Of a stretch of DNA of 64,000 nt, positions 16,338 to 64,000 are shown piece after piece (the stretch's first letter is position 1; every line of letters begins with the position of its first letter). A program made the position numbers and the translations under genes. The notes beneath the pieces are model-generated. The model was not told where the DNA came from, did no database searches, and saw only the letters and a list, made by a program, of their open reading frames with translations. The DNA is from Peristeroidobacter soli (GTDB lineage: Bacteria; Pseudomonadota; Gammaproteobacteria; Steroidobacterales; Steroidobacteraceae). The stretch spans positions 1,164,827-1,228,826 of the forward strand of contig NZ_RYEV01000005.1 of assembly GCF_004138485.1 (NCBI RefSeq), written 5' to 3'.

Positions 16338-16346
16338 CGGACGACG

Positions 16347-28463: not shown

Positions 28464-28507
28464 ACAATCTGCGGCATCGTTCGTCATCTCCTTTGACAGT
28501 AGTCCAC

Positions 28508-28522: not shown

Positions 28523-28543
28523 CTCGGCAGACAAGGAGATCCG

Positions 28544-28786
28544 ATGTCGACCAGCTGCTTCGATCGTGAGGACGGCGTCTTCAAGGTGCTCGTCAACCAC
28601 GAAGAGCAATATTCTCTGTGGCCGCAGTGGAAGCAGATCCCCGGCGGCTGGACCGACACCGGCGTGCAAGGTGACAAGCAGCGCTGTCTCGAGCACGTCG
28701 AGAAGGTCTGGACCGACATGCGGCCGCTGTCCTTGCGCAAATGGATGGCGGAGCAGGAGGCGAACAAACAAACCGTCGAACGCTGA
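28544..28786 (+). CDS. mbtH: MbtH-like protein
   Basis: The 80-aa protein is a typical MbtH: it has [19 protein letters not shown] with the conserved Ser-Leu-Trp and Pro-x-Gly-Trp, and later [21 protein letters not shown]. MbtH proteins bind NRPS adenylation domains as chaperones or activators and are often needed for soluble, active synthetases. The ATG at 28544 has AAGGAG five bases upstream; an earlier in-frame GTG at 28493 would run through the hairpin and lacks such a site. It is the first biosynthetic gene of the long operon, six bases before the thioesterase. It probably serves the large synthetases downstream and perhaps also the two upstream NRPS proteins. Confidence 0.97.
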
Positions 28787-28791
28787 GCGGG

Positions 28792-29532: not shown

Positions 29533-30496
29533 GCGTCGCGCGCCCGCAGGTTCCTCGCTGCCGCTGTTGGTTGAAGCGCGGAGTCGGAGGGAGTCGCTGT
29601 CGGAAGGTCTGGCGCTCCTCCGCCCACGAGTGCAACAGATGCTCGATGACGTGGGTGGAATCCTGTTGCGCGGCTTCGCGGTGCCGGGCGTCGATGAGTT
29701 TCGTGAATTCGCGACAGCTTTCGGCCAGCCCCTGTTGAGCTACGAGCTCGGGTCGACGCCGCGAACCGCGATCGCCGGCGGCGTGTACACCTCCACGGAG
29801 TATCCGGCGCACCAGCACATCCCGTTGCATAGCGAGCAGGCGTACACGCGCGAGTGGCCGATGAAGATCTGGTTTCACTGCGTGACGGCAGCGGCCGTTG
29901 GCGGTGAGACGCCGATCGCCGATAACCGCGCGATCTATGCGCGTATGCCGCCGGCAATTCGCGAGCGCTTCGCGGCCGGCGTCCGCTATGTGCGCAACTT
30001 CGGCGACTTCGACGTGCCGTGGCAGCAAGTGTTCAATACCGAACGTCGCGAGGACGTCGAAGCACAGTGCCGGCGTGCTCGCATCGGGTGGCAGTGGCAG
30101 TCGGGCGGTGAGCTTCGGACGCAGCAGCTGTGCCAGGGCATGGAACGTCATCCGCGAACCGGCGAGTCCGTCTGGTTCAACCAGGCGCACCTGTTTCACA
30201 GCTCGAATCTGCAACCGGAAGTGCGCGAGTCGTTGATCGATGCCTTGGGCATTGAAAACATTCCGCGCGATGTGCTGTTCGCGGATGGCACCGCGATTCC
30301 GGACGCACTGCTGGATGACATTCGTGGCGTGCTCGCCGAGCAGTCCGTGGTTTTTCCATGGCAGGCCGGCGATGTGCTGATGCTCGACAACATGCGCGTC
30401 TCGCACGGGCGCGCTCCATTCAAAGGACCTCGCAAGGTGATCGTGGCGATGGCGGAGCCGCACGACAATCTGAGCTGGGGCGTGCGTCACTCATAA
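29510..30496 (+). CDS. TauD/SyrP-like Fe(II)/2-oxoglutarate oxygenase (likely beta-hydroxylase)
   Basis: The 328-aa protein belongs to the TauD/clavaminate-synthase-like oxygenases. The facial triad is readable: His107-x-Glu109 (HSEQAY) and His299 (SHGRAPF), followed by the 2-oxoglutarate-binding Arg region. SyrP-like members hydroxylate the beta-carbon of carrier-bound Asp in NRPS pathways. It overlaps the thioesterase gene by 23 bases, with GGAGG before the GTG start, and precedes the large NRPS by 14 bases. The window contains an exact Asp-type adenylation domain (in the 49827 gene), a plausible target. This would give beta-hydroxy-Asp, a common iron ligand in siderophores. It differs from the second oxygenase at 58934 in sequence, so the two probably act on different residues. 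Confidence 0.88.
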   Translation: MSTSPCLERRAPAGSSLPLLVEARSRRESLSEGLALLRPRVQQMLDDVGGILLRGFAVPGVDEFREFATAFGQPLLSYELGSTPRTAIAGGVYTSTEYPAHQHIPLHSEQAYTREWPMKIWFHCVTAAAVGGETPIADNRAIYARMPPAIRERFAAGVRYVRNFGDFDVPWQQVFNTERREDVEAQCRRARIGWQWQSGGELRTQQLCQGMERHPRTGESVWFNQAHLFHSSNLQPEVRESLIDALGIENIPRDVLFADGTAIPDALLDDIRGVLAEQSVVFPWQAGDVLMLDNMRVSHGRAPFKGPRKVIVAMAEPHDNLSWGVRHS

Positions 30497-30510
30497 GGGA
30501 TTCATTGACG

Positions 30511-45500: not shown

Positions 45501-48500
45501 GACCGAAGGCGATGCCTATGTCATGCAGAACACCTTTGCGTTTCAGAGCCGGCGGCAGCTCGAGAGCTTTGTCGACAGCTTCAATCGAGTGATCGAGCGG
45601 CACGACATTCTGCGTACCGCCGTGGTGTGGGAGGGGCTCACCGAAGCGGTTCAAGTGATATATCGAAGTGCCCCACTGCGGGTGAAGTGGCTCGATGTCC
45701 CCGAGGCCAGCGATACCGAAGCAGCGGTCCAATTGCTGGACGCTCATGCGCATCCCCGTCGTTTCAAGATCGACGTACGGCGCGCGCCGATGTTTCATGC
45801 GGTGGCACTGCGCGAGGCGACGCAGGGACGCTGGTTGCTCAGGCTGCTCAGTCACCACCTGATCGACGACAACACCACGGTGCGACGCTTCATCGAGGAA
45901 ATCATCCTGATCCAGCAGGGACGGGAGGCGGAGCTGCCCGAGCCCATTTCATTCCGGCACTTCGTGGCTCGAGCTCGCCGCAGCGATAGTGTCGCGGGAC
46001 ACGAAGCGTTCTTCCGAAAGATGCTCGGCGAGGTGAACGAACCGACCGCGCCATTCGGGCTGCTGGATGTGAGGGGCAGCGGCGATGACGTGGCGGAAGC
46101 GCGCTTGCGACTGCCGGCGGAGCTGTCGAAACAAGTGCGCGAACAGGCTCAGCGCCATGGCGTGAGCGCGGCGGCGCTGTTCCATCTGGCCTGGGCGCTG
46201 GTGCTGGGCAAGACCACCGGTCAGAGCGATGTCGTGTTCGGGACGGTGCTGTTCGGGCGCATGCATGGCGGCGAAGGTGCCGAGCGCGCGCTCGGCTTGT
46301 TCATCAACACGCTGCCGATCCGCATCGAGCTTGGCACGAACAGCGTGGCGCGATGCCTGCGACAGACTCACGAGGTACTGACGGACCTGATGCAGCACGA
46401 GCATGCCAGCTTGCCGCTGGCGCAACGCTGCAGTGGCCTGCCCAAGGGCACGCCGCTGTTCTCGGCGCTGTTCAACTATCGACATGGCGCGGCCGCTTCC
46501 GATCCATCCGCGGTGCATGTCTGGGAGGGCATGGAGGTTCTCAGCAACGAAGAGCGTACGAACTATCCGATCACGATGTCGGTGGACGACAGCGGTGAGC
46601 GGTTCGAGCTGCAGGCGCAGGTCGTGCCTTCGTTGAGCGCGACCCGCGTTTGTGAGTATCTGCACCACAGTCTCGCTGAGTTGATCGGGGCGCTGGCCGG
46701 ACAATCGCAACGGCTTGCGTGCGAGCTGGAGATGATGACCGAGGCCGAGCGGACGCAACTATCGCGGTGGAGCGTCAGTCCCAGCCGTCTTGCACGGACC
46801 GAGCGAATTCATGACTCGATCGCCCGCCGGGCGGCTCAATCGCCGGAGGCGACGGCGCTGACCTTCGACGACGAACGAGTGAGTTACGCGGAGTTGAACG
46901 TCCGAGCGAACCGGCTGGCGCATCGATTGATGGCACTAGGGGTGGGCCCCGAGGTCCGCGTCGGTATCGCGATGGAGCGTTCGACCGAGCTGGTCGTCAC
47001 CATCCTCGCGATTCTGAAAGCGGGCGGCGCCTATGTGCCGCTGGATCTCGGCTATCCGCTGGAGCGACTGCGCTATATGGTCGACGACAGCGGCATGCGC
47101 CTGCTGTTGACTCAGCGGCGACTGGTGAGCGGATTGCCAACGTCCGACGCGGTCCGCGTCCTCGCGATCGATGAGATCGATACCCCCCATGAGTCGGCGG
47201 TTGATCCCGACGTGACGTTGCATCCGGAGAATCTCGCGTACGTAATCTACACCTCGGGATCGACGGGCAGGCCAAAGGGCAGTCAGATCTCGCATGCCAG
47301 CCTGTCGAACTATCTGTGCTGGGCGCAGGCGTACTACTTCGAGGACGCGCCCGACGGGGGCAGCTTCGGACTGTATTCCTCGCTCTCGTTCGACCTGACC
47401 GTCACCAGCCTGTTCGTCCCGCTGCTGCGTGGGCGGACGCTGCGAGTCTTCGCCGAGGAGCTGCCGGTTGCCGACATCTTGAAAGCCAGCTTCGCGCCGG
47501 ACAGCTCGATCGACGCAATCAAGCTCACGCCTTCGCACATCTCCTTGCTGGGGCAGCTGGGTCTGCCGAAGGCGCGCATTCGTCTGGCCATTGTGGGCGG
47601 CGAGGCGCTGTCGGCCGAGCAGGTGCGTGTGTTGCATGGCCTGAACCCGGCGATGCAGGTTTACAACGAGTACGGTCCCACCGAGTCCACCGTCGGTTGT
47701 GTGATTCAACTCGTTCGGCGTGGCGAGGAGTCGATCGCCATCGGCACGCCGATCCCGGGGACGTGTGCCTATGTGTTGGATGCTCGGGGCATGCCTGTGC
47801 CGATCGGCGTGACAGGTGAGTTGTATCTCGGTGGCGCAGGCCTCGCCCGCGGATATCTGGATCGCGCGGGACTGACAGCCGAGCGCTTCGTGGCGGATCC
47901 CTTCGGCGAGTCGGGGGGCAGGCTGTATCGCACCGGTGATTGGGTGCGTTGGAATGCCCGTGGCGAATTGGAGTATCTGGGACGCATCGATCACCAGGTA
48001 AAGATCCGCGGCTACCGGATCGAGCTGGGAGAAATCGAGTCTCAGCTGCTCGCGCAACCCGAAGTGCGCGAGGCGGTCGTGATGGCGCAGGGGGAGAAGG
48101 ACGGCAAGCGACTGATCGCCTATGTCGCTCCCGAGATGAGCGCGCTCGATACCGCCGGTGGCGATGCGGATGTGGCTTCGCGTGGCGAGCTGGTCGCGCA
48201 ATGGGAGTCGGTGTTCGACGGCACCTATGAGGGCGAGGGGACGGCGCCAAGTTTCCGCGGTTGGAACAGCAGCTATACGGATCTGCCGATTCCTGAAGCA
48301 CAGATGCAGGAGTGGTTGGAGAACACGGTGGCGCGCATTCAGTCGCTGCGGCCCGAGCGCATCCTGGAGATCGGCTGCGGCGTGGGACTGCTGGTGCAAC
48401 ACCTGGCGCCGCGCGTTGCCAACTATCTGGGCAGGGATTTGTCGGCGTGCGCCGTGAGAGATCTGAGCGCCTGGATCCGCACGCAGTCGGCGTTGTCGCA

Positions 48501-49830: not shown

Positions 49831-52800
49831 CTGTCGTGCTATCCCAGATCGAGATCGACACCGAGTCCGAGGCGCATCGGCTCGCGACTCGGATCGCACT
49901 ACTGGATCGCGAGAAGCGTACGGTACTGCTACGACGATTGATACAACAGGGCGTCGAGACGTCGACCCTTCCCATCGTGCCGTTCTCGGACCCGGCACGC
50001 AGGCCCGTCTCCTACGCACAGCGCGGATTGTGGCTGACGTGGCGCATGGCGCCGAACAGCCCTGCTTACAACATGGCTGGCACGCTGGTGCTCGAAGGCT
50101 CGCTCGATGCGCGCGCGCTTGAAACAGCGATGGATGATCTGGCCCGACGGCACGAGGTGCTCCGCACTGTATTCAGGCCCGCGGCCGACGGCGAGCCCGA
50201 ACAAGAGATCCTGGCACCTTCATCGGGCGCCTTGCGATTCGATGATCTGACGACACTGCCTGCCGGGGAACGCGAAGCGCCGGCGCGGCTGCGTTTGCAA
50301 CAGCATGCCAGCGAGCCTTTCGATCTGGAAAACGGTCCCGTGTGGCGGGCGTTGCTGCTGCGATTGAACGAGCGCAGCCATTGGCTCGGCATCGTCGTGC
50401 ATCACATCGCGGCGGATGGCTGGTCGATCGCGGTGCTGATCGAGGATCTGGCGGCCCTGTACGAAGCCCGCCTCGCCGGTGTCGAGCCTGCTTTGCCGCC
50501 GCTGAGGATTCGGTTCGCCGACTATGCGTTGTGGCAGCGTGAATGGATTGCCGCCGGCGAGCTCGATCGGCAATTGAATTACTGGCAGCGGCGGCTCGGA
50601 ACGGAGCATTCGGCATTGCCGCTGCCGTTGGATCGTGCGAGACCGGTGGTTCGTCACGACAGCGGGGCACAATATCGCTTCTGGCTGACCGCAGAGGTGG
50701 CGGCGGGGGTGCGTGAGCTCGCTGAAGGCTGCGGCGGCAGCGTGTTCATGGTCATGCTGGCCTTGCTGAAGGCTGTGGTCGCGCGTCACTGCGGCGTGGA
50801 CGACATTTGTATCGGTGTCCCAGTCGCCAACAGGAGTCGCGCCGAGACGCATCGTCTCGTCGGCTATCTCACCAATGTGTTGGTCGTGCGGACGCGCGTC
50901 GAGCTGCACACCGACTTTCGTTCGCTGCTCACCGCTGCGCGAGAGGCCATGCTCGAGGCGCAGTCGAACGCCGACTGTCCGTTCGATCTGCTGGTCTCGA
51001 GCTTGGTGAAGGAACGACACAGCGGTATCAATCCTCTGTTTCAGGTCAAGTGCACCGAACAGGACAGGGTCGACCTGCGTGATTTCGGCGGTTTGCGCGT
51101 GACCACGACGCCGGTGGAAGCGGTGCACGCGCATTTCGATCTCAGTCTGGACTTCACGGCCGGCAAGGACGGGATCCGCTGCGATTTCACCTATCCGACC
51201 GACATCTTCGACGAAGCCACCGTCGCTCGACTTGCCGGTGTCTTCATGGCGTTGGCGCAACGCGTGGTGACGGCGCCGGATGCGTCGATGATCGCACTCC
51301 TGCCGACGGAAGATCTCTCTGTCGCAGTCGGCGAGCGTCTATCGTTGAATGAGAACGATGATGTGGTCGCGCGATGGGAGCGGAGTGTCTTGACGGCACC
51401 TCACGCGCTGGCGCTTCGGCAAGAGGAGCGATCGATCACGCGCGGCGAAGTGGATGCCTGGGCGAATACGCTGGCGGCGCGTCTCGGCGCCTTCGGCGTC
51501 GGACCCGAAGTGTGCGTCGGCGTGCACGGCACGCGTTCGATCGAGCTCGTGGTGGGGCTGCTTGCCGTGCTCAAGGCAGGCGGCACATATGTGCCGCTCG
51601 ATCCAGCGATACCCGCGGAGCGCCTGGCGTATCAGGCGCGAGACAGCCGCATCGCTCTGCTGCTGAGCGCCGAGGCATTGGCGTGGGAGCCTGGCGTGCC
51701 GGTCTGGCCACTGGTGCCGAACGAGGGTGTGACATTCCCTGTTGCGAGACCGGTGAGAACGCCTCACACCACGCAGGGCGCCTATATCATCTACACCTCG
51801 GGCTCCACGGGCCGTCCCAAAGGTGTCGTCGTCAGTCGCGGAGCGCTGGCCAACTATGTGAGTGGCGTGCTCACGCGACTGAATCTGCCGGAGAGCGTGA
51901 TCAGCATGGCGATGGTCTCGACTGTCGCGGCTGACCTCGGGCACACCGTGCTGTTCGGCGCGCTTAGCGACGGCAAGCTGTTGCATCTGATCAGCGCCGA
52001 GCGTGCTTTCGATGCGGATCGCTTCGCGGAGTACATGCAGCGGCACTCGGTCGACGTCTTGAAAATCGTGCCCGCTCATCTGCAGGCGTTGCTCAACGCC
52101 TCTCGGCCGGAAGATTCCCTGCCACGACACACGCTGATTTTGGGTGGAGCAGCGACTCACTGGCCCTTGCTGGATCGTATCCACCAGCTCTCCCCGACGA
52201 CGCGAGTGCTCAATCACTACGGGCCGACCGAAACGACGGTGGGCATCCTCACGCAAGAGGCCGGCGATGCGAGGCGCGAGGCAACGGTTCTACCGGTGGG
52301 CAAGCCGCTGTCGAACAGCGCTGCCTATGTGCTCGACGGTAAGTTGCAGCCGGTGCCGCGAGGGACAGTCGGCGAGTTGTATTTGGGGGGCGATGCCGTT
52401 GCCCGAGGATATCAGGGCCGCGCAGCGCAGAGTGCCGAGCGCTTCGTCGCGAGTCCCTTCGAGCTCGGCGGTCGTTTGTATCGCAGTGGCGATCGAGTGC
52501 GCCAGCTGCCGGACGGCAGTGTCGAATTCCTGGGCCGTGTCGATGACCAGGTGAAGATCCGTGGCTATCGGGTCGAGCTCGATGAAATCGCCCAACTGCT
52601 GCTGACCCAACCGGAGGTCGAGGAGGCGACCGCGATCGCCCGCGATGGCAAGCTGTACGGATACGTCACGATCCACGCCGGTCATCGGATCGAGGGTTCG
52701 ACGCTATGCGAACGCCTGCAGGAAACATTGCCGGACTACATGATTCCGTCCGGCATCGTGATCCTGGACGAATTGCCGAAGAACGCCAACGGCAAGATCG

Positions 52801-55800
52801 ACCGACGAGCGCTGCCGGTGCCGGAGGCCGCCAACGATCAGACATACAAAGCGCCGCGAAGTGAAGTCGAGCGTGTGCTGGCGGCGCTGTGGGCAGACGT
52901 GCTTGGCGTCGAGCGGGTCGGTCGTGAGGACAACTTCTTCGCCTTGGGCGGGGACTCGATCCTGAGCCTGAAGCTGGCGGCGCAGGCTCGCAAACGTGGG
53001 ATTGCGCTGGCTCCTCGGGCCGTGTTCAAGCATCAACAGTTGCACGAGCTGGCCGCGAGCCTCGCGACTCAAGCGCTCGAGCCGACCGTTGCCATCCCGA
53101 CGCTCGATCACTCGAAGCGGACTGTTCCCCAGCCTCTGTCGTATGCCCAGGCGCGCCAGTGGTTTCTTTGGCAGCTGAACCGTCAAAGCACCGCATATCA
53201 CATCAGCAGCGCGCTGAAGCTCGACGGCGCGTTGAACGCGGACGCGTTGAGGACGAGCTTCGATGCGTTGGTGTCCCGGCACGAATCGCTGCGTACGGTG
53301 TTTCGTCCGCGCGCCGATGGTCAGACCGAGCAAATCGTTCTGAACACTGTCGGCGCGCACCTCGAGAATGTCGACCTGACCGAGTACGACGCGGGACAGC
53401 GCGATGAGCGGGTCCGCACCGAGGTCATGCGATTCCATCAGACTCCCTTCGACCTGGAGCGAGGACCTCTGCTGCGCGTGGGCCTCATCCGCGTGTCGTT
53501 TGCGGAGCACGTGTTGGTGGTGGTCATGCATCACATCGTCTCCGACGGCTGGTCGATGCAGATTCTGATCGATGAGTTCGTGAAGCATTACCAGGCAAGC
53601 ACACGGGGCGAGTCAGCGACGCTACCGTTGCTGCCGATTCAGTACCTGGACTACGCGGTGTGGCAGCGGAACTGGCTGGAGGCCGGCGAGCGAGAGCGGC
53701 AACTGGCGTATTGGAAGGCGCAGTTGGGAGATGACCAGCCGCTGCTGCAGTTACCCGTCGATCGCTCGCGGCCGATGGAACCTGTCTATCACGCCGCGCT
53801 TCATGATTTCGAGCTTGCGCCCTCGCTCGCGCACGGCGTCCGCCAACGAGCCAATGAGCGCCGTACCACGGTGTTTACAGTGCTGCTCGCCGGATTGCAG
53901 GCGTTACTGCATCGGTACACGGACCAGCGCGATATCCGGATCGGCATGCCCAACGCCAACCGGAATCGTCCGCAGACCGAAGGGATCGTCGGGTTCTTCG
54001 TCAACATGCAGGTCCTGCGGGGCGAGGTCGATGCGGAGATGAGCCTCACGGCGCTGCTCGAGCAGGCACGAGTCGCGACGGAGGCGGCACAGGACAATCA
54101 GGATCTGCCGTTCGATCAACTCGTCGAGGTGCTGCAACCCGAGCGCGTCGCGAGTCATCAACCGTTGTTCTCCGTGACGATGAATCATCAGCGCCGCGAC
54201 TTTCGCAACCTGGCGAAGCTGCCGGGGATGGTCGTGAGCAGCTACGGTCTTGGTGAGCAGCACGCGCCGTTCGAGCTGACGTTGGAAACCGTGGAGAGCG
54301 CGGATGGAACGATCTACGCGTCGTTCCGGTATGCGCGAGAGCTGTTCCGAGAAGAGAGCATTGCGCAGCTCGCTCGGCACTACGTGAAGATGCTGCACGC
54401 AATCGTCGATGCCGCTCATCTGCGCGTCGCGGATGTGCGCTTGGTGGACGATGGCGATGCGGAGCAGCTCATCCAGTGGGGAGTGAGCGCATCAGCCTCT
54501 GCGGATCACGCACCGGTGCATTCGCTGATCGAGCAGCGGGCAAGATCGCACGCCGATGCGGTGGCACTGATCGCGAGTGACGGCCAGCTGAGCTATGGGC
54601 AGCTCAACGCCCGAGCGAATCGACTGGCGCATCGGCTGCTCGCCCTGGGCGTGACCGCCGAGACTCGGGTCGGCATCGCGCTGGAGCGCTCCTTCGAGAT
54701 GATCATCGGGCTGCTCGCCGTGCTCAAGGCGGGCGGTGCGTACGTGCCGCTGGATGCCGACTATCCCAAGGACCGATTGCAGTCGATGGTGGAGGACAGC
54801 GGTATCGGGCATTTGCTCACGCAGCGTGCGATCGTCGCGCGTCTGCCGTCGATCGCGGGTGTCGAGCCGCTGCTGATCGATGCTCTCGATCTGAGTGCCG
54901 AGTTGGAGAGCGATCCTCGAAGGGCAGTGCACGCGGACAACCTCGCGTATGTGATCTACACGTCGGGTTCGACGGGCAGGCCGAAGGGCGTAGCGGTTCC
55001 GCACGGCGCCTTATCCATGCACTTGCGCGCCATCCAGCAGGTGTATGGGATCACTGCGGCGGATCGTCAGTTGCTGTTTGCCTCGATCAGTTTCGATGCG
55101 GCCGGGGAGCAATGGATGTTGCCATTGCTGGCGGGGGCGGCGATCGTTCTGCCGACGCCGGGCGACAAGACCTTCGAGCACGTCGAGCAACTGATCGCGG
55201 CGCAGGCCGTTTCGATTCTGTATATGCCGCCGGCCTACTTGCGGCGGTTTCTCGAGACGCTGCGGGGCCGGACCCTGCCGGTTCGCTTGTGTATCGCGGG
55301 GGGTGAAGCCTGGGCGCGTAGCGATTTCGAGGCGGCACAGCGTGCGTTCACTCCGGAACGTCTGGTGAATGCGTACGGTCCGACGGAGACAGTGATTACG
55401 CCAACCGCCTGGAGCGCCAATTCGCAGGCAGCGATCGAGCAGGCGCATCTTCCTATCGGCAGTGTCGTGGGCGAGCGCGCCGCCTATGTGCTGGACTCGC
55501 AGATGAATCTGGTGCCGCAGGGGGTCGCGGGTGAGCTGTATCTCGGCGGATTCGGCCTGGCTCGTGGATATCTGCTGCGCGCCGGGCTCACTGCTGAGCG
55601 CTTCGTGGCTGATCCCTTCGCAGCGAGCGGCGCACGACTGTATCGAACGGGTGACTCGGTACGCTGGAACCGGCAAGGCCAGCTGGAATATCTGGGCCGC
55701 ATCGATCAGCAGCTGAAGATTCGCGGCTTTCGTATCGAACTGGGTGAGATCGAGGCGCAGTTGCTGGCTCAGCGCGAAGTGCGTCAGGCGATCGTGCTGT

Positions 55801-58800
55801 CGCAGGGGGAGGCAGACCAGAAGCGGCTGCTGGCCTATGTCGTTCCCGACGAGGACGGTGTTCGTGGCGCAACGAGCCCAACCGATGTTTCTTCGCGCAG
55901 CGAGCTGGTGACGCAGTGGGAGTCGGTATTCGACGCCACGTACGAGATCGAGCGAACGGCGCCGAGCTTTCAGGGCTGGAACAGCAGCTACTCCGACCGG
56001 CCGATTCCCGAGATCGAGATGCGGGAATGGTTGCAAAACACGGTCGAACGCATTCGCGCCCTTCGGCCCGAGCGCATCCTGGAAGTGGGCTGCGGTGCGG
56101 GGCTGCTGGTGGAACAGCTCGCTCCAGCGGCTCGCGTTTATGCGGGCACGGACTTGTCGGCTCGCGCAGTGAACGGTCTGCGGGCATGGGCGGAAACACA
56201 ACCGCAGCTTGCGCACGTGCACCTTCGCCAGGCCGAGGCCACGGACTTCAGCGGCATCCAGCCGGGGGAGTTCGACACCGTCGTGTTGAATTCCGTGGCT
56301 CAGTATCTGCCGGATGTCGACTATTTGCTGGCAGTCCTCGAGGGCGCGGCGCGGGTGCTTGCTCCGCGAGGGCAACTGTTCATCGGTGACCTGCGGCATC
56401 TTGCGCACGTGCCCCTGCTGCACGCATCGGTGCAGCTTCACAAAGCCTCGGCTCAGACGTCGGTGCGGCAGTTGAAGAACCGCATCGCTCGCGCGGTCTC
56501 GCAGGACAAAGAACTCGTGCTGGATCCGGCGTTCTTCCATGCCTTGGCCGCGCACCTCGGCATGGGAAGCGTGGAGATCTCATTGAAGCGAGGCGGCTTC
56601 GACAACGAGCTGACGCGCTATCGTTATGACGTGGCGATACGCAAAGAGAGCGTCGAGCGACCGACTGCTCGAGTCTTCGATGCCTGCGGGACCGATGCCG
56701 TCGAGCGGCTCGCCGCTCATCTGAAAGCACATCGACCGCCCGCAGTCCTCCTACGCGCCGTGCCGAACCGACGTATGTCACGCGACCTGGCGGCGTGGCG
56801 GCTGCTGGAGTCGTTGGAGGGTCGCAGCACGGTCGGTGAATTGTTGTCGCGGCTCGAGCGAACCGAGCGTATGGGCATCGATCCTCAAACGCTGTGGGCC
56901 TTGGGCGATGAGCACGGCTATCACGTTCGGATCTCGTGGAGCGAGCAGCACACCGATGGCGCGTTCGATGTGGAATTCATCGATCCGGCGCGACTTGCAC
57001 TGGTGACGCGAGCCCACCAGCTCGCCGATCCACCGGCGAGCTGGCGAGTCTTCGCGAGCGATCCCGCGCGAGCTGTGTTCATGCAGCAGCTCGGCCCGCG
57101 ACTGCGCGAGCGCCTGGCGCAGGTGCTGCCCGAGTACATGGTGCCGGCGCATTTCATCCTGCTCGATCAGCTGCCGCTGAATGCCAACGGCAAGGTCGAT
57201 CGCAAGCAGCTACCCGAGCCCGAGCAGGTGGAGGCCGGGCACTATCAGGCGCCGCAGGGCCCGATCGAGCGGACGCTCGCGAAGATCTGGGCCGAAGTGC
57301 TCGGTGTGGAACGCATCGGCCGAGGCGACAACTTCTTCGAGCTCGGTGGCCACTCGCTGATGGCGATTCGAATCGTGTCGCAGGCACGTCGCGTGTTCGA
57401 TTGCGAGCTGTCGCTGCGAGCGCTGTTCGAGCATCCGTGTCTGTCGGAGCAGGCCGGTTTGATTCAGTCGCTGCCGACGGCGCGCTCGGGGCCGGTGTTT
57501 CATGCCGCAACTTCCAGTCGACCCGCGCTTTCCCATGCACAACAGAGACTATGGTTTCTGTGGCGGTTGGATCCTCGCTCCGCGAGCATGAACTCAGCGA
57601 GCGCGCTGCGCCTGGCCGGGCCGCTCGATCTCGAAGCCTGGCGGTTCGCGTGTCAGTTCGTGGTCGCACGACATGCCTCGCTCCGCACTGTGTTCCGGGA
57701 AGAGGACGGGACGGCGTGGCAAGAGGTGTTGGATGAAACATCGGCACCGGAGCTGGCGGTCACCGATCTGGGCAGGTGGCAGGGAGATTCACAGTTGCGC
57801 CATCTGCAAGAGCACATCGCTCAGACGATCCGCCGGCCGTTCGATCTCGAACGCGGACCGTTACTGAGAGTGCAGCTGTATCGTCTGGCCGAAGACGAGC
57901 ACGTCATGTGCGTCGTCATGCATCACATCGTCACCGATGCATGGTCCACGGCGCTGGTGGTGCAGGATTTTGTCGCCGCTTACGCGGCCAGGCGACGCGG
58001 CGAAATTCCTGCGCTGGTCCCGCCTTCGTTGCAGTACGTCGACTACGCCATCGGGCAACGCGAGTGGCTGGAGCAGGGCGAGATGCGGCGTCAGCTGGAC
58101 TACTGGACGGAGCGCCTGACCGGTGTGCCGCCGCTCGTCGTACCGCCCGACCAGTCGCCGCCAGCGCAGAGAAGTCATCCCTGCGGCGTCATGCGAACGT
58201 CGCTCGACGCGGAGTCCACAGCAGCGCTGCGAACCTTTTGTGAGTCGCAGGGAGTCACGCCGTTCATGGTGCTGCTCACAGCGGTCAGTGTCGTCGTGAG
58301 GGAACGATCGCGGCAGGAGCGCTTCGTGGTCGGAACGGACTTTGCCAATCGCAATCATCCGCGGACCGAGTCGTTGGTCGGCTTCCTGGTCAATCAGGTG
58401 GCTTTGCCCATCGATTGCCACGCGTCGCGCTCGGCCCGGGAGCTGTTGACGCAAGTCAGAAACACCGTGCTGGGCGCGGCGGACCATCAAGATCTTCCGT
58501 TCGAGCGCCTGGTGGAATCGCTGCGTTCCGAGCGACGGGGCGACGGGCGGGCGCCGCTGTTCCAGCTCAAGGTGCTCTATCAGGACGATGGCGCGGCGGC
58601 GCTGGCGCTGCCAGGGCTGCACATCGATGAGTATCCGATCGAGCCTGCGCAGGTGGAACTGGACCTGATCCTGATGTTCCATGCCGATGCGCAGCGGGTT
58701 CATCTCGCAGCCAAGTACGACCGCGAGTTGTTCGAGCCGGCGACGCTGGAGTGCATGGGGCTGGAGATCCTCTCCATCCTGAAGGTCATGCTGCCGCAAC

Positions 58801-58937
58801 CGGAGGTCGAGCTCGCCGCTCTGGCGGACGAAGCGAAACGGATCCGGCGGGATTTCGAAGCGCGAGCGCTGCAGCGGCGCGATCGCAAGCTGGCACAGTG
58901 GCGGGGAAGTCTGCGAGGACGATCGGTGATGCCATGA
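49827..58937 (+). CDS. NRPS: C-A(Asp)-T-C-A-MT-T-C
   Basis: The 3036-aa protein begins with a short helical segment, then C1 (from about aa 60, HHIAADG at 192), A1 (515-995), T1 (Ser1044, GGDSI), C2 (from 1103, HHIVSDG at 1235), A2 (1562-2010) with an inserted N-methyltransferase (about 2022-2270), T2 (Ser2510) and a C-terminal condensation domain (2568-2992, HHIVTDAW at 2699). The A1 code D-L-T-K-I-G-H-V-G is an aspartate code, and its A4 region reads AADLGHT. The A2 code D-A-E-L-I-G-A-I-T is not one I can assign; Glu at the third position hints at a basic residue such as Lys or Orn. The protein stops after its third C domain, so that module is completed in trans by the 59998 gene product. 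It starts at a GTG overlapping the previous stop and ends in an ATGA overlap with the oxygenase gene. Confidence 0.94.
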   Translation: MTVVLSQIEIDTESEAHRLATRIALLDREKRTVLLRRLIQQGVETSTLPIVPFSDPARRPVSYAQRGLWLTWRMAPNSPAYNMAGTLVLEGSLDARALETAMDDLARRHEVLRTVFRPAADGEPEQEILAPSSGALRFDDLTTLPAGEREAPARLRLQQHASEPFDLENGPVWRALLLRLNERSHWLGIVVHHIAADGWSIAVLIEDLAALYEARLAGVEPALPPLRIRFADYALWQREWIAAGELDRQLNYWQRRLGTEHSALPLPLDRARPVVRHDSGAQYRFWLTAEVAAGVRELAEGCGGSVFMVMLALLKAVVARHCGVDDICIGVPVANRSRAETHRLVGYLTNVLVVRTRVELHTDFRSLLTAAREAMLEAQSNADCPFDLLVSSLVKERHSGINPLFQVKCTEQDRVDLRDFGGLRVTTTPVEAVHAHFDLSLDFTAGKDGIRCDFTYPTDIFDEATVARLAGVFMALAQRVVTAPDASMIALLPTEDLSVAVGERLSLNENDDVVARWERSVLTAPHALALRQEERSITRGEVDAWANTLAARLGAFGVGPEVCVGVHGTRSIELVVGLLAVLKAGGTYVPLDPAIPAERLAYQARDSRIALLLSAEALAWEPGVPVWPLVPNEGVTFPVARPVRTPHTTQGAYIIYTSGSTGRPKGVVVSRGALANYVSGVLTRLNLPESVISMAMVSTVAADLGHTVLFGALSDGKLLHLISAERAFDADRFAEYMQRHSVDVLKIVPAHLQALLNASRPEDSLPRHTLILGGAATHWPLLDRIHQLSPTTRVLNHYGPTETTVGILTQEAGDARREATVLPVGKPLSNSAAYVLDGKLQPVPRGTVGELYLGGDAVARGYQGRAAQSAERFVASPFELGGRLYRSGDRVRQLPDGSVEFLGRVDDQVKIRGYRVELDEIAQLLLTQPEVEEATAIARDGKLYGYVTIHAGHRIEGSTLCERLQETLPDYMIPSGIVILDELPKNANGKIDRRALPVPEAANDQTYKAPRSEVERVLAALWADVLGVERVGREDNFFALGGDSILSLKLAAQARKRGIALAPRAVFKHQQLHELAASLATQALEPTVAIPTLDHSKRTVPQPLSYAQARQWFLWQLNRQSTAYHISSALKLDGALNADALRTSFDALVSRHESLRTVFRPRADGQTEQIVLNTVGAHLENVDLTEYDAGQRDERVRTEVMRFHQTPFDLERGPLLRVGLIRVSFAEHVLVVVMHHIVSDGWSMQILIDEFVKHYQASTRGESATLPLLPIQYLDYAVWQRNWLEAGERERQLAYWKAQLGDDQPLLQLPVDRSRPMEPVYHAALHDFELAPSLAHGVRQRANERRTTVFTVLLAGLQALLHRYTDQRDIRIGMPNANRNRPQTEGIVGFFVNMQVLRGEVDAEMSLTALLEQARVATEAAQDNQDLPFDQLVEVLQPERVASHQPLFSVTMNHQRRDFRNLAKLPGMVVSSYGLGEQHAPFELTLETVESADGTIYASFRYARELFREESIAQLARHYVKMLHAIVDAAHLRVADVRLVDDGDAEQLIQWGVSASASADHAPVHSLIEQRARSHADAVALIASDGQLSYGQLNARANRLAHRLLALGVTAETRVGIALERSFEMIIGLLAVLKAGGAYVPLDADYPKDRLQSMVEDSGIGHLLTQRAIVARLPSIAGVEPLLIDALDLSAELESDPRRAVHADNLAYVIYTSGSTGRPKGVAVPHGALSMHLRAIQQVYGITAADRQLLFASISFDAAGEQWMLPLLAGAAIVLPTPGDKTFEHVEQLIAAQAVSILYMPPAYLRRFLETLRGRTLPVRLCIAGGEAWARSDFEAAQRAFTPERLVNAYGPTETVITPTAWSANSQAAIEQAHLPIGSVVGERAAYVLDSQMNLVPQGVAGELYLGGFGLARGYLLRAGLTAERFVADPFAASGARLYRTGDSVRWNRQGQLEYLGRIDQQLKIRGFRIELGEIEAQLLAQREVRQAIVLSQGEADQKRLLAYVVPDEDGVRGATSPTDVSSRSELVTQWESVFDATYEIERTAPSFQGWNSSYSDRPIPEIEMREWLQNTVERIRALRPERILEVGCGAGLLVEQLAPAARVYAGTDLSARAVNGLRAWAETQPQLAHVHLRQAEATDFSGIQPGEFDTVVLNSVAQYLPDVDYLLAVLEGAARVLAPRGQLFIGDLRHLAHVPLLHASVQLHKASAQTSVRQLKNRIARAVSQDKELVLDPAFFHALAAHLGMGSVEISLKRGGFDNELTRYRYDVAIRKESVERPTARVFDACGTDAVERLAAHLKAHRPPAVLLRAVPNRRMSRDLAAWRLLESLEGRSTVGELLSRLERTERMGIDPQTLWALGDEHGYHVRISWSEQHTDGAFDVEFIDPARLALVTRAHQLADPPASWRVFASDPARAVFMQQLGPRLRERLAQVLPEYMVPAHFILLDQLPLNANGKVDRKQLPEPEQVEAGHYQAPQGPIERTLAKIWAEVLGVERIGRGDNFFELGGHSLMAIRIVSQARRVFDCELSLRALFEHPCLSEQAGLIQSLPTARSGPVFHAATSSRPALSHAQQRLWFLWRLDPRSASMNSASALRLAGPLDLEAWRFACQFVVARHASLRTVFREEDGTAWQEVLDETSAPELAVTDLGRWQGDSQLRHLQEHIAQTIRRPFDLERGPLLRVQLYRLAEDEHVMCVVMHHIVTDAWSTALVVQDFVAAYAARRRGEIPALVPPSLQYVDYAIGQREWLEQGEMRRQLDYWTERLTGVPPLVVPPDQSPPAQRSHPCGVMRTSLDAESTAALRTFCESQGVTPFMVLLTAVSVVVRERSRQERFVVGTDFANRNHPRTESLVGFLVNQVALPIDCHASRSARELLTQVRNTVLGAADHQDLPFERLVESLRSERRGDGRAPLFQLKVLYQDDGAAALALPGLHIDEYPIEPAQVELDLILMFHADAQRVHLAAKYDRELFEPATLECMGLEILSILKVMLPQPEVELAALADEAKRIRRDFEARALQRRDRKLAQWRGSLRGRSVMP
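55890..56636 (+). repeat. Methyltransferase insert, copy 2
   Basis: Second copy of the N-methyltransferase segment described at 48181-48925, inserted in the second adenylation domain of this synthetase. The SAM-binding motif LEVGCGAGLL is intact, so the residue of this module is also expected to be N-methylated. Confidence 0.8.
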
Positions 58938-60001
58938 GCTCCACTATGAAGACACCGAGAATCGGCAGCGTGCAGCGGCAGTCGAGCAATCACGGCCCGC
59001 GCGAGTTGGTGCGCTGGAGTCGTCTGCTGCCAGACTGCGACCTGCCCTGGTTGTGCGAGCCCGCGATCGCTGGCGTCAGCTTGCCGGCCTGGGCCTCGGA
59101 GCATCGCGTGGAGATCGAGCGCCACTTGCTCGAATGCGGCGCCATTCTGTTTCGCGGCTTCGCGGTCGCGAGCGCCGAGGACTTCAATCGCTGTGTCGAA
59201 GGCATGTCCGAGGGCGCGCTCGAATACAAATTCAGAGCGTCGCCGCGAACGCGCATCCAGGAAGATCTGAATGTCTACACGTCCACCGATTATCCCGAGG
59301 CGGAAAGCATCTTCCCGCACAACGAACATTCGTACTCGCCGGTGTTCCCTCTGCAGATCTTCCTGTACTGCGCGGTGCCGGCGACGGTGGGCGGTGAGAC
59401 GCCGATCGGCAGCACCCGGGCGCTGCTCAAACGCATCCGGCCGGAGGTGCGCGATGCCTTGCTGCGCAAGGGCATCATGTATGTGCGCAACTACGGCGAT
59501 GGTTTCGGGCTGCCGTGGCAGACCGTGTTCCAAACAACCGATCGAGGGGCTGTCGAAGCGTATTGCGCGAGCGTGGGCATTCGCGTCGAGTGGAAGGGGG
59601 GCGATCGCTTGAGAACGCGGCAGATCGGCCCGGCCATGGTCCGACATCCGCAGACGGGAGAGTCGGTATGGTTCAACCACGGAACGTTCTTTCATGAGTT
59701 GACGCTGCCCGAGGCCGCGCGAGATCGCCTGCGCAGCGAGTTCGGGGCGGACGAGCTGCCGCAGAATACTTTCCATGCCGACGGTTCTCCCATCGAGCCT
59801 GAGCACATCCGGCACCTGCAGGAGCAGTATCGGCAGGTGATGGTGCAGTTTCCTTGGCAACAGGCAGATGTGCTGATGCTCGACAACATGCTCGCGCTGC
59901 ATGCCCGTCGTCCTTTCAGCGGAGCGCGCCGCGTGATGGTCGCCATGGCGCAGCCGTGTCGTAGCGTCGACGTCGCGCTTGCAAGTCAGGAGCAGGCATG
60001 A
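58934..60001 (+). CDS. TauD-like Fe(II)/2-oxoglutarate oxygenase, second copy (likely His beta-hydroxylase)
   Basis: The 355-aa protein is a TauD/SyrP-like oxygenase with the triad His129-x-Glu131 (HNEHSY) and His323 (LHARRPF). It shares the family's VGGETPI, QTGESVWFN and ADVLMLDNM stretches with the oxygenase at 29510, but the two are clearly different. The ATG at 58934 overlaps the preceding NRPS stop (ATGA), and its own stop overlaps the next start (ATGA), so it is translationally coupled on both sides. It lies between a C-terminal condensation domain and a protein that opens with an interface-like domain and a His-like adenylation domain. In published siderophore systems, interface domains accompany dedicated beta-hydroxylases, including one type for histidine. 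I therefore infer beta-hydroxylation of carrier-bound His. Confidence 0.88.
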   Translation: MSSTMKTPRIGSVQRQSSNHGPRELVRWSRLLPDCDLPWLCEPAIAGVSLPAWASEHRVEIERHLLECGAILFRGFAVASAEDFNRCVEGMSEGALEYKFRASPRTRIQEDLNVYTSTDYPEAESIFPHNEHSYSPVFPLQIFLYCAVPATVGGETPIGSTRALLKRIRPEVRDALLRKGIMYVRNYGDGFGLPWQTVFQTTDRGAVEAYCASVGIRVEWKGGDRLRTRQIGPAMVRHPQTGESVWFNHGTFFHELTLPEAARDRLRSEFGADELPQNTFHADGSPIEPEHIRHLQEQYRQVMVQFPWQQADVLMLDNMLALHARRPFSGARRVMVAMAQPCRSVDVALASQEQA

Positions 60002-63000
60002 AAATGCAGGCAGAGTCTTCGGCTGGATATCTCCTATCGTCGCAGCAGTGCTCGGTCCACGTCGCGGACTGGCAAACACGTGCGCCGGTCAACGTGATTC
60101 TGGTCGAAGGACCGGCGAGCCTGGGGCAGGCGCAGGTGCTGCAGGCCGCGCTCGATGAGCAGATCCGGCGTCATGAAATTCTTCGCACGTGCTATCGCCC
60201 GGTGATTGGCCTGAGATATCCGATGCAGCATGTGGAGACGAAGCTGCCCGCGGCGTGGACTACGCTCGAAGCGACAGTCGACGATCGCTCGCTGATGCAG
60301 TCAGCTCGGTCGCGGCTGAGTCTTCGCGACGGTCCGGTCATTGGGGCTGCTCTCGCTCCGGCAGCGGCGGGCCGGGTGCGCTGGGCGCTGGCAGCACCGG
60401 CTTACAGTCTGGACGCAATGGCTTTGCAGGCGTTGATCGAGGCCTGCGTGACGCGAAGTCCTGCCGCTGACGTGATCCAGTATCCCGACTATGTGGCCTG
60501 GCAAAGTGAGTTGATTGCCAGCGAGCTGGGCAGCGAAGGCGCTCGCTTCTGGGAAACACAGCTACCTGGTGCGAAGGGCAGCGAGCGGCTGCCGTTCGAG
60601 ATGGATGCGAACGCGGACGCCGGCGACAGTGAAAGCGTGGCTTTGAGCGATGAAGCCGACGCAGCGCTCGGCAAGCTGGCGAAGCGTCTGAACCTGCCGT
60701 TGGAACGTGTGTTGCTCGCGGCCTGGGGCGGCTTCATGGCGCGCGTGATGCAGACCGATGACCTGTCGATCGACTGGCATGCCGATGTGCGGAGCGCGGA
60801 ATTGGACGGAGCGCTCGGATGCTTCGTCATGAAGCTGCCGGTGTCGTTGCATTTCGACGCCGAGCTGTCGAGCGACGCGTTGATACAGTCCGTGGCCGAA
60901 CAATTGCGGAACGCGGCGTCGTGGCAGGAGTGTTTCGATGCCGCCGCTCATAGCGATCGGTTGGCCCGCATCGATCGAACCCGATCGCGGATCGAGTTTG
61001 CTTACGTTCGGGAGCGCCCGTGGTCCGAGGGGTGGCAGCTCCGGCACATCGAATTGGCGCCGGGCGATGCACGCCTGCAGTGTTTGTGTATCGATGCGGG
61101 CGGTGGACGCGTCCTGCGCTGGCAAGGCGTCGCAACTCATGTTCGAGGAACGTTGCGAACGTGGAGCCACCAGTTCGTCACTTTGTTGGAATCGTTGGGC
61201 CGGCAGCCCGAACGGCGCTGGCTCGAGCAGTCGATGCTCCGGCCTGCGGAGCGGACGCAGTTGCTGAGCGAGTCTCGGCAGGAGACGAAGCCGCGCGAGC
61301 ATGATGATCGGCAGCCCCGGACATTGCACGGCCTGTTCGAAGCGCAAGTGGTGCGCACGCCGGATGCCGTCGCGGTGGTGTGCGACGATGAGCAGCTGAC
61401 CTATTGGGAACTCGATCACCGTGCGGATGTATTCGCTCGTCGACTGCGCAGCCGAGGTGTTTCGGCGGAGTCGTGTGTCGGCGTCCATCTCGGACGCTCC
61501 GTCGATCTCATCACCGCCATGCTGGCGGTGCTGAAGAGTGGCGCGGCCTACGTGCCGCTCGATCCCGGCTATCCATCAAACCGGCTCGACGGCATGATTG
61601 CGGATGCCGGCATTTCCGTCGTCATCGGTCGCGCGCACGAGCGGGGATCCTTCTCGGATTCCGGGATCAGGCTCGTCTATATCGATGAAGGTGAGCAGAC
61701 GCCGGGAGATCTTGCCGCGCTTCGGATCTCTCCTCAGCAGCTGGCCTACGTCATCTACACCTCCGGCTCGACCGGCAGGCCCAAGGGCGTGATGGTCGCT
61801 CACGCCAATGCGGTGGCATCGACACGATCCCGATTCACTTTCTATCGAGGCGCACCACGGCGCTTTCTGCTGCTTTCATCGCCGTCGTTCGACAGCTCGG
61901 TGGCGGGGATTTACTGGACGTTGGCTCAGGGAGGCGCGTTGTACATCCCGCCGGAAGGCAGGCACCAGGATGCTGCTTATCTCGCGCAGCTGGTGACGCA
62001 CGCGAGGATTTCACATTTGCTGGCGCTGCCATCCTTTTACAAACAGATCCTGCAAGCGGTGCAGGACGCGGGCCATTTACAGTGCGCCATCGTGGCCGGT
62101 GAGGCGTGTCATGCCGACGTGATCGAGGCGCATCGACGCAAGGCGCCAGCCGCCACCCTCGTCAACGAGTACGGCCCGACGGAAGGTACCGTGTGGTCGA
62201 ACGCGTTCACGATCGACGCGCGCTGGGCGCCCGGGATGCGGGTGCCCATCGGACGCACGGTCGATTCGATCTATGGCTACGTGCTCGACGAGTGCCTGGA
62301 ACCTTGCCCGGTGGGACTGCCCGGAGAATGGTACATCGGCGGCGAAGGCATCACGCGCGGATATCTCGGACGGCCTGCGCTGACGACACAGCGATTCGTC
62401 GCGGATCCGTTCGGCTCCGGCGAGCGGTTGTACCGCACCGGCGATCGAGTGAGGTTGCGGCCGGATGGCGAAGTGGAATTCCTGGGGCGCGGCGATCGCC
62501 AGGTCAAGGTGCGCGGTTATCGGATCGAACTGGATGAGATCGAGGCCGCGCTGCGCTCCCACCCGCGTGTGCGCGAAGCTGCCGTTCTAGTCCACGACAG
62601 CGACGAGCTGGGGCAGCAACTCGCAGGCTTCTTCGTGCTCGCGGCGACGGACACGGATCATCGCGCCTTGCGTGATGAATTGCTGGCGCACTTGCGGCGG
62701 TTGGTGCCGGCCTTCATGGTGCCCGCGCATCTGGTGCCAGTCGCGAGCCTGCCGCTCATGCCGAACGGCAAGCTCGATCGGCAGGTGCTGCTGAAGACAC
62801 TCGATCGAGGCTTGCGCGCACCCTATGCTGCTCCGGGCGACGACACGGAGCGTGCGTTGGCGCAGATCTGGCAGGGAGTGCTCAAGGTCGAGCGCATCGG
62901 CCTGCACGACAATTTCTTTTCGCTGGGCGGTCATTCGCTATTGGCGACGCAGGTGGCTTCTCGGATCCGCGAGATCATGGCGGTGGATCTGCCACTCAAG

Positions 63001-63117
63001 GCGCTATTCGAGACCGCCACGCTCGCCGAGCTTGCGAGCGAAGTCCGTCAACGTCTGGATGTGAGACTGGACGACGTGGCCGCGATGGAGCGTCTCATGG
63101 CCGACGCGCAGGAGTGA
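59998..63117 (+). CDS. NRPS: interface-like C domain, A(His-like), T
   Basis: The 1039-aa protein starts with a condensation-fold domain (about aa 1-430) whose catalytic motif is destroyed: where HHxxxDG is expected it reads P134-A-Y-S-L-D139-A. It should not form peptide bonds. The adenylation domain (about 440-925) has the code D-S-A-L-I-A-E-V-W, similar to histidine codes as I recall them (DS-x-x-x-AEV). The carrier Ser980 lies in LGGHSLLATQ. The active condensation domain for this residue is the one at the C-terminus of the 49827 protein. A degenerate condensation domain in front of an A domain, next to an oxygenase gene, matches the interface domain described by Reitz, Butler and co-workers for siderophore beta-hydroxylation. 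The ATG overlaps the oxygenase stop and AGGAG lies five bases upstream. The stop is followed by the next NRPS after two bases. Confidence 0.93.
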   Translation: MKMQAESSAGYLLSSQQCSVHVADWQTRAPVNVILVEGPASLGQAQVLQAALDEQIRRHEILRTCYRPVIGLRYPMQHVETKLPAAWTTLEATVDDRSLMQSARSRLSLRDGPVIGAALAPAAAGRVRWALAAPAYSLDAMALQALIEACVTRSPAADVIQYPDYVAWQSELIASELGSEGARFWETQLPGAKGSERLPFEMDANADAGDSESVALSDEADAALGKLAKRLNLPLERVLLAAWGGFMARVMQTDDLSIDWHADVRSAELDGALGCFVMKLPVSLHFDAELSSDALIQSVAEQLRNAASWQECFDAAAHSDRLARIDRTRSRIEFAYVRERPWSEGWQLRHIELAPGDARLQCLCIDAGGGRVLRWQGVATHVRGTLRTWSHQFVTLLESLGRQPERRWLEQSMLRPAERTQLLSESRQETKPREHDDRQPRTLHGLFEAQVVRTPDAVAVVCDDEQLTYWELDHRADVFARRLRSRGVSAESCVGVHLGRSVDLITAMLAVLKSGAAYVPLDPGYPSNRLDGMIADAGISVVIGRAHERGSFSDSGIRLVYIDEGEQTPGDLAALRISPQQLAYVIYTSGSTGRPKGVMVAHANAVASTRSRFTFYRGAPRRFLLLSSPSFDSSVAGIYWTLAQGGALYIPPEGRHQDAAYLAQLVTHARISHLLALPSFYKQILQAVQDAGHLQCAIVAGEACHADVIEAHRRKAPAATLVNEYGPTEGTVWSNAFTIDARWAPGMRVPIGRTVDSIYGYVLDECLEPCPVGLPGEWYIGGEGITRGYLGRPALTTQRFVADPFGSGERLYRTGDRVRLRPDGEVEFLGRGDRQVKVRGYRIELDEIEAALRSHPRVREAAVLVHDSDELGQQLAGFFVLAATDTDHRALRDELLAHLRRLVPAFMVPAHLVPVASLPLMPNGKLDRQVLLKTLDRGLRAPYAAPGDDTERALAQIWQGVLKVERIGLHDNFFSLGGHSLLATQVASRIREIMAVDLPLKALFETATLAELASEVRQRLDVRLDDVAAMERLMADAQE

Positions 63118-63119
63118 TC

Positions 63120-64000
63120 GTGTCGGCAGCGGACCAGTCGGCAAGCGAGCGACTCCAGTCCATTGCACGACAGCTTGCGGCGATGGCACCCGCCGCCCGC
63201 AAGGCCCGGCTTCGTCAGATGAGGGTGAGCGGGCTCAGTCCCGGCAGGTTGCCCATCGTCCCGGCGGTGTCGGCGCGCGAAGTGCTTTCTTACGCCCAGC
63301 TGCGGCAATGGTTCTTGTGGCAGCTCGATAAATCCAGCACGGCCTATCACATCAGCAGCGCGGTGAAGCTGTCGGGGCGCCTCGACGCGAGTGCGTTGAA
63401 GGGTAGCTTCGATGGATTGGTCGCGCGACACGAGTCGTTGCGCACGGTGTTCCGTGGCGGAGCGGAGGGGGAGGTCGAGCAGATTGTTCGGCCGGAATCA
63501 CGGGCACATGTCGAGGAGATCGACGTGAGCGATGTGGCTGTGTCGGAACGTGAGGCGGCGGTGCGAGCCGCAGTGACGCGCTTTCATCACCGGCCGTTCG
63601 ATCTGGAGCACGGTCCCCTGCTGCGGATCGCGCTGGTCCGGATCGCGGCCGACTCGCACGTGCTCGTCGTGATCATGCATCACATCGTGTCGGACGGCTG
63701 GTCGATGCGAATCCTGATCGATGAGTTCGTCGAGCAGTATCGTGCGAGAGTCCGTGGCGAGCTGCCGGCGTTGCCAGCGCTCCCGATTCAATACGCGGAC
63801 TATGCCGTGTGGCAACGGAACTGGTTGGAAGCAGGGGAGAAGGATTCACAGCTAGCCTATTGGCGCGAGCAGTTGGGCTCGGAACACCCCGTGCTGTCGT
63901 TGCCCACGGATCGACCGAGAAATGCCGATGCTCGCTATACGGCCGCATGTCATGCGTTCGAGCTCGATCCGGAATTGACTCGAGAGCTGCGGCGACGGAC
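63120..64000 (+). CDS. NRPS, 5' part only (C domain; continues beyond the window)
   Basis: An open frame starts with GTG at 63120 and runs to the window edge (about 293 codons visible). It begins with a short helical segment (SERLQSIARQLAAMAPAARK), followed by a condensation domain from about aa 56 (LSYAQLRQWFLWQL) with an intact HHIVSDGWS. This domain closely resembles the second condensation domain of the 49827 protein (shared AYHISSA and RHESLRTVF). It follows the previous stop by two bases, so the operon continues. It must carry at least one further module and possibly the release domain; neither is visible. Confidence 0.93.
   Translation, partial: MSAADQSASERLQSIARQLAAMAPAARKARLRQMRVSGLSPGRLPIVPAVSAREVLSYAQLRQWFLWQLDKSSTAYHISSAVKLSGRLDASALKGSFDGLVARHESLRTVFRGGAEGEVEQIVRPESRAHVEEIDVSDVAVSEREAAVRAAVTRFHHRPFDLEHGPLLRIALVRIAADSHVLVVIMHHIVSDGWSMRILIDEFVEQYRARVRGELPALPALPIQYADYAVWQRNWLEAGEKDSQLAYWREQLGSEHPVLSLPTDRPRNADARYTAACHAFELDPELTRELRRR

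Follow-up and report, generated by a model that had tools for sequence, protein, structure and literature searches.

A putative histidine beta-hydroxylase and its interface-type partner domain in a predicted lipopeptide siderophore cluster of Peristeroidobacter soli

Results

A predicted histidine beta-hydroxylase/interface-domain module

The current analysis concerns a 64,000-nucleotide stretch of the Peristeroidobacter soli genome (assembly GCF_004138485.1, contig NZ_RYEV01000005.1, positions 1,164,827 to 1,228,826; the whole of this stretch is referred to as the window), and in particular two adjacent genes near its right-hand end, which specify a stand-alone oxygenase and a nonribosomal peptide synthetase (NRPS) protein whose first domain has lost the catalytic histidines of a condensation domain. 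Considering the sequence comparisons described below, we estimate a probability of approximately 0.9 that these genes represent, within a lipopeptide siderophore synthetase, a module with a histidine beta-hydroxylase and an interface domain. Judged by the same comparisons, the pair is a further case of the published IBH_His/interface-domain system of siderophore beta-hydroxylases, reportedly set out by Reitz in PNAS in 2019, and is not new in kind. The elements of the module are the following, genes and proteins being named by the first coordinate of their reading frame:

58934..60001, + strand: Fe(II)/2-oxoglutarate oxygenase of the TauD/TfdA family, 355 amino acids (aa), putative histidine beta-hydroxylase of the IBH_His type (PF02668, H129/E131/H323, tree position)
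59998..61302, + strand: interface-type (I) condensation-superfamily domain, residues 1-435 of the 59998 protein, catalytic HH lost (Pfam, alignments, tree)
60397..60417, + strand: PAYSLDA replacing HHxxxDG, residues 134-140 (alignments)
61336..62790, + strand: adenylation (A) domain, residues 447-931 of the 59998 protein, code DSALIAEVW, His-like (alignment)
62854..63039, + strand: carrier (peptidyl carrier protein, PCP, or T) domain, residues 953-1014, GGHS (Pfam and domain reading)
57522..58847, + strand: C-terminal condensation (C) domain of the 49827 protein, residues 2566-3007, HHIVTDA, likely the active C domain of a split His module (same place in 78 of 80 relatives)

The ATG of the oxygenase gene at 58934 lies within an ATGA whose TGA (58935-58937) closes the 49827 gene, while its own TGA (59999-60001) lies inside the ATGA that opens the next gene at 59998; the oxygenase gene thus shares four bases with each neighbour, as the first-pass annotation of this DNA had stated, both overlaps being ATGA. 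The deduced oxygenase matches the Pfam TauD model PF02668 with 148 bits, and the solved structures matched by its sequence are TauD-like proteins (1y0z, 9yut); an NCBIfam search placed it in no family and returned generic NRPS models only for the NRPS proteins. Residues H129, E131 and H323, which by analogy with the TauD family would bind iron, are retained in all 81 aligned His-type rows (window included) and in all 41 paralog rows. Downstream, the gene at 59998-63117 specifies a protein of 1039 aa that is composed of the dead condensation-type domain, an A domain and a carrier (I-A-T).

The 59998 protein begins with a condensation-superfamily domain without catalytic histidines

The N-terminal domain of the 59998 protein scores 84.9 bits against the Pfam Condensation model (cut-off 30.6), and where the aligned C domains show HHxxxDG its residues 134-140 read PAYSLDA, so that profile and alignment agree with the earlier claim of a condensation fold carrying this substitution. 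Among dereplicated rows, the two histidine columns of the motif hold His in 35/36 and 36/36 C-family sequences and in 0/35 interface-type sequences. When all interface-type rows are considered (the window, 79 His-type and 5 Asp-type), His is found in 0/85 at either column and Asp in 85/85; given the alignment and this equal loss, chance or a misreading of the motif is out as the source of PAYSLDA. Four further positions (window numbering) are common in interface-type rows and rare or absent in C-family rows, namely Q16 (30/35 versus 2/36), G181 (28/35 versus 2/36), W309 (29/35 versus 0/36) and Q392 (33/35 versus 3/36). The dead domain is retained in all 79 His-type relatives, with a length of 385-497 aa. 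Structures matched by sequence are condensation domains, the best by profile being Txo1 and Txo2; for this domain and the oxygenase together, no molecule named as an interface domain occurs among the best 60 of 65 rows of the solved-structure search.

For the condensation-superfamily tree, partial domains (<=380 aa or <=40 bits) were removed; dereplication then left 36 of 332 C-family domains (at 45% identity) and 35 of 85 dead domains (at 60%). In both this tree and that of the hydroxylases, the "known" interface domains and hydroxylases are represented by loci of species with known siderophores and not by published reference sets. In a careful maximum-likelihood analysis, the 35 sequences without HH (32 His-type, 3 Asp-type) and the 36 C-family sequences, one of which bears the epimerisation motif EGHGRE, are split by a branch with support of 100/99. 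The domain of the window falls with the dead partner domains of hydroxylases, where it pairs with that of Variovorax L003 (100/96), and the tree does not separate the dead domains of the His type from those of the Asp type. It is therefore a condensation-superfamily partner domain without HHxxxDG which clusters with the dead domains of the fetched loci, and tree and motif together rule out an ordinary C domain. An epimerisation domain, expected to carry HHxxxDG and an EGHGR-type motif and to follow a carrier, was likewise rejected, as the domain is without HH, occupies an N-terminal position and is separate in the tree from the single EGHGRE row.

The hydroxylase tree was based on 122 sequences thinned to 34 (78%), from which Pseudomonas corrugata L065 was dropped as being near L038. 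In this quick tree the window oxygenase and 22 other His-type rows, including enzymes of P. thivervalensis, P. entomophila and others, stand apart from 11 paralogs (Shimodaira-Hasegawa-like approximate likelihood ratio test, SH-aLRT, 95); the window oxygenase thus joins, in a group of 23 dereplicated rows, the enzymes found beside His modules in loci of siderophore-producing species. Both tests that could be performed computationally were accordingly favourable to the proposal of the first-pass annotation that an inactive interface domain is paired with a dedicated beta-hydroxylase, and on these sequence grounds the proposal is supported.

The pairing with a His-like module is conserved among relatives of the oxygenase

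A scan of genome contigs, in which FPHNEHSY was one of six search patterns, yielded 140 relatives of the oxygenase, of which 80, with an identity of 50-71%, were kept and analysed. The code of the next A domain, readable at 77 of these 80 loci, is DSALIAEVW in 71 cases and DSALVAEVW in six; since all 77 readable relatives share this code beside the same oxygenase, a chance pairing is excluded. The code of the window, DSALIAEVW, was read by alignment; under the usual position rules and code assignments it would specify His, as the first-pass annotation had also proposed.

At 78 of the 80 loci a C domain without a subsequent carrier closes the gene directly upstream of the oxygenase, as it does in the window, where this C domain (HHIVTDA) is the last domain of the 3036-aa 49827 protein. 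The arrangement predicted earlier, namely a split module with its active C domain on another protein, is thereby borne out, and because 78/80 loci are alike, the distribution of C domain, oxygenase and I-A part over separate genes is a rule for this oxygenase group and no quirk of the window. Five of these loci also show an HH match that is not the catalytic one; their catalytic motif is HHIAFDG (5/5). In some relatives the I-A-T part runs on into more modules.

Some relatives show features of their own. In a Sorangium metagenome-assembled genome (L036), tandem hydroxylases of the HNEY and then the HNEH type precede an I-A protein, the gene directly upstream of the oxygenase thus being a further hydroxylase. 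His-type pairs also occur outside Proteobacteria, in Nitrospirales (L042, L070) and Pleurocapsa (L080); the dead domains of these three outscore that of the window as C domains, and those of the two Nitrospirales loci retain the DG of the motif.

Comparison with known systems

Reitz et al. (2019) delineated three families of siderophore beta-hydroxylases, including IBH_His for beta-hydroxyhistidine, whose biosynthesis was noted in <2% of detected regions (PMC12971057). Interface domains are described as a C-domain subtype present in bacteria only (PMC10212144), and profiles for them and for siderophore beta-hydroxylases were introduced with antiSMASH 8 (PMC12230676). Beta-hydroxyhistidine is among the listed pyoverdine residues (PMC6206403), the pyoverdine of P. 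entomophila L48 includes it (OHHis; PMC4219678), and corrugatin and histicorrugatin are named, with histicorrugatin work on P. thivervalensis being cited (PMC12904278). Among the papers searched, none combined hydroxyhistidine with interface domains, siderophores and nonribosomal peptides.

With the IBH_His/interface system the module of the window shares a stand-alone TauD-type enzyme, a dead C-like domain and an adjacent A domain with a His-like code, and no difference in kind was found, the window representing another host lineage and another cluster. Its layout recurs in P. corrugata L065, P. thivervalensis L038 and P. entomophila L009, the last being a different strain from L48, with a single match to the oxygenase in its genome and a locus that may be that of its pyoverdine. 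P. corrugata and P. thivervalensis presumably make corrugatin and histicorrugatin, which we take to contain beta-hydroxyhistidine. The corrugatin/histicorrugatin-type loci (L065, L038) likewise consist of a C-ending NRPS, a hydroxylase and an I-A-T protein (1022 aa there) with DSALIAEVW, and contain a second hydroxylase before an AMP-binding start gene (HNEQ there, HSEQ in the window). They differ in a 105-nucleotide (nt) gap between the hydroxylase and I-A-T genes, as compared to the 4-nt overlap of the window, and the I domain of P. corrugata L065 is 21% identical to that of the window (L038 being outside that alignment). Five Asp-type pairs (L008, L024, L033, L037 and L044), read as IBH_Asp, likewise combine a hydroxylase with an HH-less domain and an A domain behind it, but with the code DLTK[IV]GHVG and HNES instead of DSALIAEVW and HNEH.

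The surrounding gene cluster

The module is embedded in a cluster with the following further elements:

49827..58937, + strand: NRPS, C-A (code DLTKIGHVG)-T-C-A (methyltransferase inside)-T-C, 3036 aa (Pfam, domain reading, code)
63114..64000, + strand: last NRPS, C-A-T-thioesterase, 1369 aa, running past the window into locus L083 (thioesterase PF00975 62.6 bits, cut-off 26.4)
30358..49830, + strand: AMP-binding-family start domain followed by five NRPS modules; 30358 probably lies upstream of the true start (domain reading, codes)
29510..30496, + strand: second TauD/TfdA hydroxylase, HSEQ, putative Asp beta-hydroxylase (Pfam, tree; substrate inferred)
28741..29532, + strand: stand-alone thioesterase (PF00975 143.6 bits)
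28493..28786, + strand: MbtH-like protein (PF03621)
start 28263: DUF4880 gene
27641..28159, + strand: sigma-70-family factor (PF08281 52.5 bits, over cut-off; NF005448 181.4, just under the cut-off of 190)
24787..27240, + strand: TonB-dependent receptor (PF00593 and PF07715 over cut-off)
L083 4131-6338: siderophore receptor beyond the 63114 gene (TIGR01783 395 bits, cut-off 223.5)
Beyond the 63114 gene: diaminobutyrate transaminase (NF005393 787.7 bits, cut-off 671)
Beyond the 63114 gene: cyclic peptide exporter (TIGR01194 431, cut-off 286)

The NRPS genes are thus adjoined by a siderophore receptor gene, and the AMP-binding start domain of the 30358 frame would represent a fatty-acyl ligase. 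Following this start domain, the A-domain codes are DVWHFGLID, DILQLGMIW, DIWEMTADD, DFWNIGMVH and DLTKIGEVG (1-5) and DLTKIGHVG, DAEYIGAIT, DSALIAEVW and DAEDQTTVT (6-9), which we take to specify roughly Ser, Gly, a diaminobutyrate (Dab)-like residue, Thr, an Asn-like residue and Asp (1-6) and His (8). The second hydroxylase groups with enzymes encoded in front of AMP-binding start genes at corrugatin-type loci. Its probable partner is the Asp-like module, whose C domain is an ordinary one and on which it would form beta-hydroxyaspartate. This agrees with the proposal that the stand-alone PtcA is responsible for a beta-hydroxyaspartate of potashchelin (PMC7100376).

As regards other NRPS features, a methyltransferase is inserted near the C-terminal end of two A domains, those of module 5 (30358-49830) and module 7 (49827-58937). 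Elsewhere in the window, an NRPS gene at 7037-12397 (- strand) specifies approximately 600 N-terminal residues without a Pfam match at 0.001, and another at 16245-24149 (+ strand) ends in a reductase domain.

Proposed pathway and alternative explanations

To judge from its code, the adenylation domain of the 59998 protein would load L-His on the carrier of the same protein. By analogy with its family, the dead C-like domain would then recruit the stand-alone oxygenase, which would hydroxylate the beta carbon of the carrier-bound His using Fe(II), 2-oxoglutarate and O2. The layout suggests that the C-terminal C domain of the 3036-aa protein would link the peptide to beta-hydroxyhistidine, following which the 63114 protein would add the final residue and release the product. 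In this product beta-hydroxyhistidine may serve as an iron ligand, alongside a beta-hydroxyaspartate probably generated by the second hydroxylase.

A number of observations weigh against this interpretation. Two rows of the condensation-superfamily tree were flagged as long and the dead domains evolve fast, so that long-branch grouping may inflate their unity. Among the 80 relatives, the codes of three (L030, L034 and L079) are unreadable and two (L036 and L082) are exceptions to the upstream C domain, the C-ending NRPS of L082 stopping approximately 7 kb upstream of the oxygenase. The C domain that would feed the module of the window has DA rather than DG in its motif. The left TonB receptor (24787) scores 126 bits against TIGR01783, which is under the siderophore-receptor cut-off of 223.5. 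Finally, no convincing ornithine N-oxygenase or hydroxamate gene was found, the search giving two PF13434 matches, both weak and distant from the cluster, which are uninformative because the same family matches in 12/14 control genomes; the full set of iron ligands is consequently unaccounted for.

This last result, together with a fatty-acyl ligase-like start and a cyclic peptide exporter, both of which are shared with other lipopeptides, would also fit a module that makes beta-hydroxyhistidine for a bioactive lipopeptide other than a siderophore. We regard such a product as unlikely, since the cluster holds two TonB receptor genes, one of them over the siderophore-receptor cut-off, as well as a sigma factor and a DUF4880 gene, and its layout is that of corrugatin-type species. 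The loss of both histidines and the fast evolution of the dead domain could alternatively mean that it is just the decayed remnant of an ordinary condensation domain and that the oxygenase reaches the carrier without it, yet its retention in 79 His-type relatives and its possession of Q16, G181, W309 and Q392 make this very improbable.

Many described relatives act on Asp, and an Asp-like module (DLTKIGHVG) is present in the upstream protein, so that the enzyme might act on Asp with the adjoining His module being incidental; families for this residue, TBH_Asp and IBH_Asp, are named in PMC12971057. We consider this scarcely credible in view of the His-like code next door in 77/77 readable relatives and of the second hydroxylase in the same cluster, which falls with the paralogs.

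If the histidine beta-hydroxylase/interface reading is correct, such a pair is recognisable from its sequence alone, and the predicted product of the cluster, a lipopeptide with beta-hydroxyaspartate and beta-hydroxyhistidine, could be isolated. The conserved split, with the C domain on one protein and I-A-T on the next, moreover offers a small protein for studying how oxygenases are recruited by dead condensation domains.

Distribution

When 59 related genomes besides that of P. soli were searched for the oxygenase, five gave some match, none above 44% identity, so that a close copy is present in 0/59; the pair is hence placed in a lineage whose other searched members are without a close copy. 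The nearest relatives (63-71%) are in records of Variovorax, Rhizobacter, Aquabacterium, Paracidovorax and Achromobacter, and others are in records of Nitrospirales, Sorangium, Methylocapsa and Pleurocapsa and on plasmids. The absence of a close copy from the related genomes suggests horizontal spread, and the pair was probably acquired horizontally.

The residue following HNE and a possible adaptor role of interface domains

The residue that follows HNE in the oxygenase (position 132) is His in 81/81 His-type rows (window included), a count partly built in by the search pattern FPHNEHSY, while the paralogs carry Gln (34), Ser (6) or Tyr (1); the five Asp-type pairs have Ser (5/5). Records free of that pattern were obtained by a tblastn search of plasmids, which returned 88 records, 13 of which were fetched, and in five of these an HH-less domain comes next after the oxygenase, with an A-domain code that could be read. 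HNEH is combined with DSALIAEVW on plasmid L089, HNEM with DLTKIGHVG on L092 and HNES with DLTKIGHVG on L099, and among the five pairs only the HNEH enzyme of L089 precedes a His code. The remaining two, on Nostoc and Leptolyngbya plasmids, combine HNEN with DLTKIGEVG (L090) and HNEG with DATKVGEVG (L091); these codes are Asn-like, and possibly represent an interface-type module for a third residue.

Seven plasmid domains were added to a quick tree with 18 of the 35 dead-domain rows, picked by hand, and 18 of the 36 C rows. Six of them lack HH and group with the dead domains. The remaining one (L096), which lies behind an HNEQ enzyme and precedes an Asp-like code, has HHIAGDY and falls with the C domains. 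It is conceivable, though we hold it to be doubtful, that interface domains serve hydroxylases in general as adaptors and do not read the substrate, with the hydroxylase picking it, the residue after HNE acting as a main selector, and one lineage of interface domains serving Asp, Asn-like and His modules. Possible additions to what has been described are a correlation of the residue following HNE with the His code and an interface-domain tree that does not track the substrate. In the quick tree, the dead domains of cyanobacterial plasmids with Asp- or Asn-like codes (L090, L091, L092, L099 and L100) and that of the His-type Pleurocapsa L080 form one set (SH-aLRT 97).

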